Positions 727-48,078 of a stretch of DNA of 51,610 nucleotides are shown here, one piece after another. Source of the stretch: Thiomicrospira sp. (GTDB lineage: Bacteria > Pseudomonadota > Gammaproteobacteria > Thiomicrospirales > Thiomicrospiraceae); the NCBI GenBank assembly GCA_030826915.1, contig JAUUDE010000046.1, positions 1 through 51,610 on the forward strand, in the 5' to 3' direction. The notes beneath the pieces were generated by a model. It saw only the letters and a list, made by a program, of their open reading frames with translations, did not search any database and was not told the DNA's origin. The position numbers and the translations under genes were made by a program. The number at the start of each line of letters is the position of its first letter. The stretch's first letter is position 1.

Positions 727-1368
727 CTATTGAATGGCTCCATGTTCTTTTAATTTGGCATCAATGGCCTGTGCCATTGCTTGGTAACCTTGTTGGTTAA
801 AGTGCACAAAATCGGATTTCATAGAGGGCCTTTTGATTAGGTTAGCTACTATGTCTTCTTCTAACGGAATATCAAATTCTTCGGCTAAATCGGCATAAAT
901 GTCTAGTGAGCTGCCAAAGAGTTTTTTCTCTGGTACACCTACTAATAGCACAGGTACGCCCTTTTGTTTGGCTATTTGCAACATACGTTTTAAGTTACTG
1001 TAAATCACGCCAACAGGCACTTTTTGCAAAACGTCATTACCACCTTCTAGTAAAATAACCAGGCCTGGGTTGTGCTCTTCTAAAACAGATTGAAAACGGG
1101 CCAACCCTTGCGCAGTGGTTTCACCAGAAATACCGGCATTGATGACTTTGTGGCGTGTTAAGTTGGCTAATACAGCTGGGTAACTTTGATTTTTGGTTAC
1201 CCCATAACCTGCGGTTAAGCTATCGCCAAAGGCCACAATTACATCTTCGGACTGCAGCGCAGGTAATTTAGCCCTGCTGCATGAGGTGAGTAACAGAGCA
1301 ACAATAATAATGCTTAAAAGCCATGTTACCAGGCCTGGTATGGTATTCTTTTTTATTTGATTACTCAT
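727..1368 (-). CDS. tesA: GDSL/SGNH esterase lipoprotein (TesA-like arylesterase/lysophospholipase)
   Basis: This is an SGNH-fold hydrolase acting on acyl esters or thioesters in the periplasm. Block I is FGDSLTAGYG with the nucleophile S50, block III is EGGNDVL with N111, and block V has D186 and H189 in DFVH. Unlike E. coli TesA, the N-terminus ends in a lipobox (LLTSC, cysteine 30) after a hydrophobic segment at residues 12-29, so the enzyme is probably a membrane-anchored lipoprotein. The sequence contains one exact and one near copy of the window's dispersed palindrome (1328-1339 and 1058-1069), both inside coding sequence. The specific substrate cannot be told from sequence. Confidence 0.85.
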   Translation of the reverse strand: MSNQIKKNTIPGLVTWLLSIIIVALLLTSCSRAKLPALQSEDVIVAFGDSLTAGYGVTKNQSYPAVLANLTRHKVINAGISGETTAQGLARFQSVLEEHNPGLVILLEGGNDVLQKVPVGVIYSNLKRMLQIAKQKGVPVLLVGVPEKKLFGSSLDIYADLAEEFDIPLEEDIVANLIKRPSMKSDFVHFNQQGYQAMAQAIDAKLKEHGAIQ

Positions 1369-1457
1369 GAATATTCCGTTTTACTTTTAATTGTAAAAAA
1401 CAAATTGAGGGCTTTGCACTTAAAAGCCACAAGTTATTTATTAAACAACTGCTATCT

Positions 1458-1733
1458 ATGTCTGTAAAAAACCGTATTAATCCTATTATTAAGCCATTAG
1501 CTTACACTTTATTTGCCCTTTCTGCCATTGCTTGGATTGGGGTTTTTATTATTCCTTTTTTGGACTTTAGTGTGGCCGAATCGGCGGGTATTATCACGGC
1601 CTTAATTGTTGTAGGCGAGGTGGCTTTTTATATTGCAATTTTGTTGTTGGGTAAACCTTTGTGGGAGAAGATGAAAGCCCATTTATTTGCTAAACTTCCA
1701 ACAGATATTACGGAAAAGAAAGACAAAAATTAA
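1458..1733 (+). CDS. Small two-TM membrane protein, transporter-suffix-like
   Basis: A 91-residue protein with two hydrophobic segments, about residues 13-34 and 42-64, joined by a short loop (FLDFSVAE), and a charged C-terminal tail (KMKAHLFAKLPTDITEKKDKN). The pattern, including EVAFYIAILLLGK after the second segment, resembles the small family described as a transporter suffix domain, which can be found fused to or near transporters. No clear ribosome-binding site precedes the ATG. It reads in the same direction as the parvulin gene 14 bp downstream and may be co-transcribed with it. Function unknown; the family assignment is from memory. Confidence 0.6.
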   Translation: MSVKNRINPIIKPLAYTLFALSAIAWIGVFIIPFLDFSVAESAGIITALIVVGEVAFYIAILLLGKPLWEKMKAHLFAKLPTDITEKKDKN

Positions 1734-1792
1734 TTTGCGCGGTATGGATGTTATTTGTATTTTTTACCGTTACACTCAAGGACAATTTAAAC

Positions 1793-2071
1793 ATGGCAAT
1801 GGCTTGCGCACGACATATTTTGGTAAAAACCAAAGAAGAAGCAGAAACACTTAAAAAGAAACTGGCAGGCGGTGCGGATTTTGGCACTTTAGCTAAAAAA
1901 CACTCTTTGTGTAGCTCGGCTAAAAAAGGGGGAAATTTAGGTGAGTTTAGACCAGGCCAGATGGTTAAGGCATTTGATAATGTGGTGTTTAAACTGCCTG
2001 TGCTAAAAGTTCACGGCCCTATCAAAACCAAGTTTGGTTTTCACTTAATTGAAACCATCTATCGAAGTTAA
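1793..2071 (+). CDS. ppiC: Parvulin-type peptidyl-prolyl cis-trans isomerase (PpiC)
   Basis: A single-domain parvulin of 92 residues that catalyses cis-trans isomerisation of X-proline bonds, without signal peptide and therefore likely cytoplasmic. It aligns along its whole length with E. coli PpiC: ARHILVK at the start, GGADFGTLAKKHS, GGNLGEFRPGQMV and the C-terminal FGFHLIETIYRS with the active-site histidine. An upstream in-frame ATG at 1748 exists, but the start at 1793 was chosen because AAGGA lies at 1778-1782, ten bases ahead, and because homologues begin here. Confidence 0.93.
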   Translation: MAMACARHILVKTKEEAETLKKKLAGGADFGTLAKKHSLCSSAKKGGNLGEFRPGQMVKAFDNVVFKLPVLKVHGPIKTKFGFHLIETIYRS

Positions 2072-2194
2072 CCGCTCATCCTGAACTTAAACATATAGGA
2101 AGCCGTAATTTCTGAATAGAGTTATAAATAGCTTTTATTAGAATAAATAAGAGTAATTTATTACCATTCTTAAAACTCTTTCGGATATTCAATA

Positions 2195-45972: not shown

Positions 45973-46003
45973 AAAATTTAACCGATTATTGGAAAACACT
46001 AAA

Positions 46004-46804
46004 TTAACGCAGATTCAAAACATCCTGCATATCAAACAAGCCTTTATCTTTGCCTGCTAACCAGTTACAAGAACGAGCCGCACCATTGGCAAATGTCATT
46101 CGGCTTGAAGCTTTATGGGTAATTTCAACACGCTCACCTTCTGTTGCAAACAACACGGTATGATCTCCAACAATATCACCTGCTCGTACCGTTGCAAAAC
46201 CGATGGTATTCGGATCGCGTGCGCCAGTAATACCTTCACGGCCATAAACAGCACACTCTTTTAAGTCACGGCCTAAAGTTTCAGCAACCACTTCGCCCAT
46301 ACGTAACGCTGTACCCGATGGAGCATCAACTTTATGGCGATGGTGACCTTCAATCACTTCAATATCGTAACCTTCATCCAATACTTCAGCTGCTTGCTTT
46401 AAAAGTTTTAAACACAAGTTCACACCAATGCTGTAATTAGCGGCAAATATAATCGCAATTTGTTCAGCAGCTTTGTCAATTTCTGCCAGGCCTGCTTCAT
46501 CAAACCCCGTTGTACCAATCACAATCTTTTTATTATGTTCAGTACACACTTTTAAATTATTTACGGTGGTTTGTGGCGTTGTAAAATCAATCAAGACATC
46601 AAAATCATCGACAACCGATTCTAGCGAACCAACAACCTTTACTCCCAACTTACCAACACCAGCAAGCTCACCTGCATCTGCACCAAGTAAAGAGCTATCA
46701 GGGCGTTCAATTGCCGCACTTACTGTTAGTCCTTGAGTCTGATTAACAGCATCAATCAAATTTTTACCCATACGCCCTGAAGCGCCAATAATTGCAACTC
46801 TCAT
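46004..46804 (-). CDS. dapB: 4-hydroxy-tetrahydrodipicolinate reductase DapB
   Basis: Reduces hydroxy-tetrahydrodipicolinate with NAD(P)H in lysine and diaminopimelate synthesis. N-terminal Rossmann motif [15 protein letters not shown], cofactor contact IGTTGF, and the signature [16 protein letters not shown] with catalytic histidine and lysine. Full length at 266 residues. It follows dnaJ by 22 bp and is likely part of the same transcript. In relatives carA-carB come next; here they are displaced by a 3.3-kb insertion. A CAGGCCTG core lies at 46487-46494. Confidence 0.97.
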
Positions 46805-46826
46805 CTAAAATCCTTTATGTTTTAGT

Positions 46827-47993
46827 CTAATTCCAAGGCTCGTCTTTATCTTTTCTTGATGCATTTTTATCGTCATCATCACCGGTAAAGAAAGACTTTA
46901 CCGAGTCAAAGAAACTATGAGCTTGCGGGCTATGCTGTTTATGGTGTTTACCTTGCAAACTTTCATCAAACTCTTGTAACAGCTCTTTTTGTCGTGCTGT
47001 TAACTTAACAGGTGTTTCAATATTTACAAGTACAATCATATCGCCAATGCTTGAAGAACGAACCGATTTAACCCCTTTACCAGATAACTTGAAACGTTGA
47101 CCAGATTGCGTGCCTGCCGGAATTTTTAAACTGGCTTTACCACCCAAAGTAGGCACGTCAATCGACCCACCTAATGCCGCTGTGGAGAAACTAATTGGCA
47201 GCTCACAATAAAGTGTATTACCATCACGCTCAAAGATTTTATGTTGTTTAACACGAATTCGTACATATAAATCACCTCGTGGTGCACCTGGCTCGCCTGC
47301 TTCACCTTCACCTTGTAAGCGAATACGATCTCCGTTATCGACACCTGCTGGAATCTTGACTGACAATGTTTTATTGTCGTGTGTATAGCCTTCTCCACGA
47401 CATTTTTTACATGGCGTTTTGATGAGTTTTCCTGAACCATGACAACTTGGACAAGTTCGGTTTACAGCAAAGAAACCTTGCTGCATACGTACTTGACCCG
47501 CACCATGACAGGTAGGACAGGTTTCAACTTCACTACCTGGTTCAGCTCCTGTACCATCACAAGCATCACAAATATCTTTAGTTGGGATACGAATATCTAC
47601 CGTAGTACCAGCTACCGCATCTTCCAAAGAAACTTCTAACTCATACTGTAAATCTTGACCAGGTTGTGGCCCTCTTTGGCCCCCAAAACCACCACCAAAC
47701 ATTTCACTAAAGATATCGCCAAAATCTCCAAAACCACCGCCGCCAAAGCCGCCACCGCCTTGACCACCTTCTAAACCAGCATGACCAAACTGATCATAAG
47801 TCGCACGTTTTTGTGCATCTGATAACACTTCATAAGCCTCAGCCGCTTCTTTAAACTTATTTTCTGCTTCAGCATCACCTGGATTGCGGTCTGGGTGATA
47901 CTTCATCGCCATTTTGCGGTAAGCTTTTTTAATTTCACCTTCAGAAGCCGTTTTAGTAACGGACAGGATTTCGTAGTAGCAAGTTTTACTCAT
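46827..47993 (-). CDS. dnaJ: Co-chaperone DnaJ
   Basis: Delivers substrates to DnaK and stimulates its ATPase. The J domain (residues 1-70) has HPD in [10 protein letters not shown], followed by a Gly/Phe-rich linker ([14 protein letters not shown]), then the zinc domain with four CxxCxGxG repeats ([32 protein letters not shown]) at about 140-200, and the C-terminal substrate-binding domains. 388 residues. The spacer to dnaK is long (374 bp) and structured, with possible separate promoter signals. Confidence 0.98.
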
Positions 47994-48066
47994 CGATCTC
48001 TCGTATTACGCTTGTGCGTGTTTAAATGGGTTTAATTCAAAGTTCTATTTAGAAAAAACCGAACCT

Positions 48067-48078
48067 ACCAGGCCTGGT
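48067..48078. repeat. ACCAGGCCTGGT palindrome in the dnaK-dnaJ spacer
   Basis: Exact 12-mer about 75 bases upstream of the dnaJ start on the minus strand. Confidence 0.85.

Follow-up and report, generated by a model that had tools for sequence, protein, structure and literature searches.

Marking of the own genome by a repeated word is known from only a few groups of bacteria. Excerpts of PMC3630211 describe the DNA uptake sequences (DUS) of the Neisseriaceae as words whose exact copies number from hundreds to thousands, with dialects that track phylogeny and an inner core that is conserved while the outer bases vary. For the uptake signal sequences (USS) of the Pasteurellaceae, parts of PMC1852404 give a core with A/T-rich stretches behind it, often located in spacers and terminators, with extended motifs that start with an A run and paired copies that make terminators; ComN/PpdA is the predicted USS receptor in an excerpt of PMC12616744. 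Cyanobacterial HIP1, as presented in portions of PMC4390886, is a densely repeated GC-rich palindrome, of which some relatives have alternates; Elhai proposed for it an origin through a methyltransferase and methyl-directed repair. Here we describe a dispersed palindrome, the 12-mer ACCAGGCCTGGT with the 8-base core CAGGCCTG, in a 51,610-nt stretch of Thiomicrospira sp. DNA (assembly GCA_030826915.1, contig JAUUDE010000046.1; hereafter the window). We put at about even the chance that it is one dialect of an uptake-sequence-like self-DNA tag of the Thiomicrospiraceae, unusual in its symmetry; its exact copies, clade-tracking dialects, A-run flanks, use of spacers and terminators and one-sided dialect match what is described for uptake sequences. 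A search of open-licence full text, with subscription papers outside its coverage, found no account of this signal or of competence in the Thiomicrospiraceae, and among the matches listed for the words in open-licence papers none contains the 12-mer.

An earlier note on the window had reported ten copies of the 12-mer and 20 of the core, and all were recovered exactly where it had placed them; the excess is larger than it had stated. The 12-mer was absent from each of 100 dinucleotide-preserving shuffles, and the core averaged 0.38 copies in the shuffles, with a maximum of 2. The most frequent palindrome of the window is this signal at lengths 8, 10 and 12, and TTTAAA at length 6. Across the genome from which the window comes (G000; 1.786 Mb in 99 contigs, 86.4% complete), the 12-mer occurs 197 times (backwards control, 0) and the core 655 times (backwards control, 1), so the high density extends beyond the window and the counts are far from expectation. 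CarB of this genome finds its best matches, at 88-93%, in Thiomicrorhabdus records and one gammaproteobacterial metagenome-assembled genome, and by sequence the genome is placed in the genus Thiomicrorhabdus.

A first survey of 95 genomes revealed 0 to 718 full copies in the 60 genomes of the family, and none (26 genomes) or one (9 genomes) in 35 genomes from other families of the class. Core counts are bimodal over 62 family genomes, with 236-1173 copies in 32 and 0-74 in 30 (backwards controls at most 36). Counting these 32 and three genomes with replacement words, the signal is present in 35 of the 62 and nearly absent from the other 27, some of which neighbour carriers on a CarB tree. That tree, which covers 60 members of the family by one gene, shows presence, absence and dialect tracking clades, and absence recurs in several separate ones. 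A replacement word was found in none of 20 signal-lacking genomes (the 27 less G001, G011, G038, G041, G044, G048 and G049), of which only four were sampled at about 100 kb, so that the small samples could hide one. In a collection of 2.9 million viral contigs, TTACCAGGCCTGGTAA occurred in 4 and the one-sided 19-mer in none, and there is thus no sign of a viral source.

Other repeats were encountered in these surveys. On the signal-lacking side of the replacement-word survey, AGGTTGGGG is in excess in G055. The signal-lacking clade of G022, G028, G029 and G016 (L221, L223, L224, L316) has over-represented runs of about seven G, for example GGGGGGGA or AGGGGGGG, at 4-5 per roughly 20 kb against 0.2-0.4 expected. 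In G018 (L135-L138), GGATTGAAAC with CCCCCGCGGG forms some 37-39 repeats in the sample and looks like an array of clustered regularly interspaced short palindromic repeats (CRISPR).

Within the family the word itself changes. G023 contains no 12-mer and only 12 cores; its word is ACCGGCCGGT, present 1025 times there and at most 15 times in any other family genome. The one-sided word ACAGGCCGG is found 720 times in G020 (367 and 353 by strand) and 424 times in G004 (206 and 218), where the core CAGGCCTG is down to 74 and 62 copies; in other family genomes ACAGGCCGG reaches at most 68, there near the backwards control. The G020 element approximates AAAACTCAACAGGCCGGGTA, an extended one-sided sequence (43 sites in 100 kb) that lies equally on both strands. 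The sister clade of G020 and G004 (G005, G017, G025) carries a palindrome that is built on the same left half and reads AACAGGCCTGTT, or AAACTCAACAGGCCTGTTGAGTTT at some sites. In samples of 20 kb, G005 and G017 have ACAGGCCTGT and G008 leans to GCAGGCCTGC. Some sites were counted twice where sampled stretches overlap, by 9 kb in G019 (replacement-word and dialect samples) and by 11 kb in G043 (dialect samples, and the symmetry test and inner-change count below). The replacement words occur within one genus, and symmetry is lost in one dialect, that of G020 and G004.

The sites also keep their places. Among five close species, 58 of the 74 comparisons at aligned places retained the 8-base core, where other GC-rich 8-mers reach 12.6%; these comparisons are ordered pairs over few loci and are not independent, so the p-value of the test is too small. 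Against five signal-lacking genomes, the core was kept in 1 of 31 comparisons. At the place aligned with the window site at 48067, G027 has the identical 12-mer and G008 has AGCAGGCCTGCT. The earlier note had named a HIP1-like genome signal or an uptake or recognition sequence among the candidate roles, and this general idea is supported by the counts over whole genomes, the patchy occurrence, the dialects and the conserved positions.

The anatomy of the site was analyzed in an alignment centred on it, of 150 spacer and 209 coding copies (359 in total) from ten genomes; open reading frames (ORFs) for this, for the density analysis and for the G020 element were called by a simple longest-ORF rule. 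Counted from the centre, A at position 6 and C at position 5 reach frequencies of 0.92 and 0.91 in spacers, and 0.79 and 0.73 in ORFs. A weaker flank follows, with T at position 8 (0.71 in spacers, 0.53 in ORFs) and A at positions 10 and 11 (0.54 and 0.53 in spacers, 0.48 and 0.44 in ORFs), fading by position 13. Spacer and coding copies alike have these A/T tracts about one helical turn off centre, within a weak context of 24 bases; beyond about 12 bases from the centre, no conserved bases were seen in the 359 copies. In four genomes, beside 170 perfect sites, single changes from the 12-mer numbered 23 and 33 at the outer two positions and, going inwards, 3, 4, 8 and 4, exceeding expectation at all positions. 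The statement of the earlier note that conservation lies in the centre is right, with two amendments, the weaker A/T flank and the dialect in which symmetry has gone.

In eight sets, seven with the CAGGCCTG core and one with CCGGCCGG, an oriented model fitted no better than independent halves; these dialect sets are therefore symmetric, and a hidden direction in the palindromic dialects was rejected. Dyad symmetry of this kind, with A/T flanks on both sides, would suit a chromosome-wide site of a dimeric intracellular protein acting in nucleoid folding, replication, repair or segregation, unrelated to uptake, whose specificity drifts and whose sites follow. We regard this main rival to an uptake-like tag as rather unlikely. 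Its fit extends to the gap-free spread of cores in G021, where all 21 stretches of 20 kb hold 3-11 cores (variance/mean 0.62, Poisson P 0.10; one genome, 16% sampled), a distribution at most slightly evener than random. The same genome shows no origin or terminus bias in the sample, whereas the sites of SlmA, Noc, MatP and KOPS (FtsK-orienting polar sequences) are region-restricted or strand-biased. Near-absence from 27 of 62 family genomes would also be odd for a core chromosome function, and the one-sided version in G020 and G004 also weighs against this rival. A region-restricted segregation or occlusion site of the MatP, SlmA or Noc type is not supported by the spread in this one sampled genome, and nor is the proposal in the earlier note of a segregation protein site, in so far as this means one limited to origin or terminus.

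Copies are concentrated between genes. Spacer density exceeds coding density 3.6- to 6.9-fold in eight samples of at least 51 kb, and 3.3- to 17-fold in six samples of 20 kb; per 10 kb, convergent spacers hold 20.7 copies, tandem spacers 11.3 and divergent spacers 7.9. Perfect half-arms of at least 8 bases occur in 48 of 150 spacer copies versus 17 of 209 coding copies. The ten full copies in the window divide into 7 in spacers and 3 in ORFs, and the ten core-only copies into 8 in ORFs and 2 in spacers; the earlier note had likewise placed copies in both kinds of sequence.

A perfect palindrome of 32 bases (half-arm 16) is centred on the full site at 20855..20866, in the convergent spacer between a ygfZ-like gene (19718-20803, +) and lysS (20921-22432, -), and is predicted to fold as a hairpin of -22.6 kcal/mol. 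Half-arms of 13 and 9 bases belong to the sites at 31258..31269, between an ORF (30890-31222, -) and an RhlE-like RNA helicase gene (31281-32567, -), and at 32895..32906, in the spacer from which the helicase gene and a gene of the YaiI/YqxD family (33002-33454, +) diverge. The earlier note had reported longer perfect palindromes at intergenic copies, and these three bear that out. The era (7124-8095)/rnc (8219-8938) spacer holds a site with a half-arm of 8 at 8175..8186, and the dnaJ (46827-47993)/dnaK (48368-50305) spacer holds one at 48067..48078. Two further full sites, 22510..22521 and 22534..22545, share the lysS/prfB spacer; they stand 24 bases apart, and the stretch between them folds as a hairpin that pairs half-sites of both.

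The full sites inside ORFs are at 1328..1339 (ORF 727-1368, -), 4876..4887 (4329-5039, -) and, with a perfect half-arm of 8, 6695..6706 (6390-7109, -). Core-only copies in ORFs are at 1060..1067 (also 727-1368), 2766..2773 (2195-3331, +), 10601..10608 in lepA (9704-11509, -), 15148..15155 in nadB (14001-15623, +), 28800..28807 in a fumC-like ORF (27890-29293, +), 37401..37408 with a half-arm of 8 (37077-37562, -), 41346..41353 in carB (38231-41446, -) and 46487..46494 in dapB (46004-46804, -); the two in spacers are at 3369..3376 (spacer 3332-3388) and at 13957..13964, upstream of nadB. Among the host genes that had been named, lepA, nadB, carB and dapB were confirmed by family match, and the fumC-like ORF scored under the curated cut-off of the fumC family. 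The tesA and recO labels were not confirmed, since the ORFs concerned have no NCBIfam family at E 1e-30; this is the result for the ORFs holding 1060 and 1328, 4876 and 6695.

Dense convergent spacers, longer half-arms in spacers and the strong hairpin at 20855 are what transcription terminators or mobile hairpin elements with a common core would give. The core is fixed, however, while the stems vary, and for several of the window's spacer copies the fold is weak or is not a simple hairpin. Terminators are excluded as a full account because 209 of the 359 sampled copies lie inside ORFs, and we give this explanation very little credence. A repetitive extragenic palindrome (REP) or miniature inverted-repeat transposable element (MITE) does not fit either: the copies share no longer element, 209 of 359 lie in ORFs, and the window has no Rfam match. 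No tRNA was found in the window. Part of the spacer copies may nevertheless double as hairpins at gene ends.

GGCC, CCAGG and CCTGG are common methylase targets, and the earlier note had listed a methyltransferase target among the candidates. A HIP1-type origin, in which a DNA methyltransferase and methyl-directed repair create or maintain the sequence, would agree with a dense GC-rich palindrome that has alternates in relatives, the situation described in the portions of PMC4390886 cited above. C5 methylases (PF00145) were found in 11 of 35 signal genomes and 13 of 27 others (Fisher p 0.20), and PF01555 in 14 of 35 and 10 of 27 (Fisher p 1.0). At E 1e-3, 15 of the 35 signal genomes have neither family, the two that were searched, and a methylase of PF00145 or PF01555 is therefore not the common cause. 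Dcm/C5 and N4/N6 methylases were rejected as a cause, as they show no association with the signal. A methylase site would also not typically have a weak A/T-flanked context of 24 bases or a one-sided dialect. With two methylase families as the scope of the search, we consider this origin improbable, and the target proposed in the earlier note finds no support.

Under the uptake-like reading, a protein that acts in DNA uptake or transformation, and is probably dimeric, would prefer site-bearing DNA; it may read the inner bases directly, with the A/T tracts about one turn out aiding DNA bending. Preferred uptake and recombination of such DNA would repair and spread the sites, as a molecular drive, and this would keep the same places occupied in close relatives. 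A shift in the preference of the reader would rewrite the whole site set as a new dialect, and loss of the preference would leave the sites to decay.

Several observations weigh against this reading. The directionality of known uptake sequences is missing in the eight sets, only G020 and G004 being one-sided. ComEC, the DNA channel, speaks for the reading in so far as 33 of 35 signal genomes have it and the other two, G006 with 330 contigs and G004 with 520, are fragmented; but it is also present in 23 of 27 signal-lacking genomes (Fisher p 0.39). PilT is over the cut-off in 27 of 35 signal versus 25 of 27 signal-lacking genomes (Fisher p 0.16); it is under the cut-off in 8 of the 35 carriers, five of them 99-100% complete (G042, G035, G054, G059, G095), and presence of the signal in PilT-lacking genomes would also suit an intracellular reader. 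The window genome, one of these eight and 86% complete, gave no PilT-family or PilQ match at E 1e-3. Pilin-type proteins occur in 14 of 14 genomes tested, and no candidate receptor emerged among them. Finally, the window genome agrees with its five close relatives in only 2 of 31 comparisons: in the carB region, at 30-50 kb, sites common to the five are missing at the aligned places, with its own site density normal.

ComEC, PilQ, PilT and N-methyl pilins were accordingly rejected as presence/absence markers, as none splits signal from signal-lacking genomes. PilQ is a poor probe, since its model is over the cut-off in 0 of 62 family genomes. Relatives such as G014 and G021 have six matches to the PilT-family and six to the PilQ models, and the window genome has ComEC; as for its missing PilT and PilQ, pili and type II secretion may have been lost, or the assembly, at 86% completeness, may have gaps there. 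In the PilT-lacking carrier G042, an MshL-like secretin, a PilB/GspE-like ATPase, a PilC/GspF-like protein, a pilin and two proteins without family match lie together (L329:4645-11820), and this compact locus makes a pilus possible there. DNA uptake in H. influenzae proceeds without PilT. The full/core ratio is lower in PilT-lacking genomes (Mann-Whitney p 0.006), a comparison that was not used: it covers few clades, and G051, G040 and G047 are low with PilT. The ratio is 0.30 in the window genome and 0.49-0.60 in its sisters. Decay of the signal in the window genome through pilus loss is unsupported, inner single changes per perfect site being 0.10, as in relatives.

A broader description has slightly less than an even chance in our judgement: a novel class of genome-wide signal, consisting of a symmetric A/T-flanked word, kept in place at about one site per 2-4 kb, with a putative dimeric reader. 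Inside one genus, the specificity of this reader would switch between words that are symmetric and one of 20 bases that is one-sided. It would be either the first symmetric uptake-tag system or a chromosome-wide function of an undescribed kind. The Thiomicrospiraceae have at least four words and a switch from symmetric to one-sided, beside species in which no word was found. If the palindrome is an uptake tag, selective natural transformation is predicted in environmental autotrophs, the sulphur-oxidising bacteria; otherwise it points to a chromosome-wide DNA reader of a new kind.

Compared with described uptake sequences, the signal shares a short exact word repeated hundreds to thousands of times per genome, dialects among relatives and an A/T-rich extended motif. 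It is not classed as a member of the DUS or USS, because the directionality of the known uptake sequences is missing from most dialects here. The likeness to the DUS of Neisseriaceae lies in copy number, clade-tracking dialects and an inner core that is conserved while the bases around it vary; DUS are directional, whereas most dialects here are symmetric, and no ComP-type receptor was identified here. HIP1 of cyanobacteria is similarly a GC-rich palindrome of high density with alternates in relatives, but the signal described here needs no cognate PF00145 or PF01555 methylase and has strong spacer enrichment, A/T flanks and a one-sided dialect. With the USS of Pasteurellaceae it shares A/T tracts and frequent placement in spacers; the cores are unrelated, and the A/T tracts that lie on one side of the USS here flank a palindrome on both.

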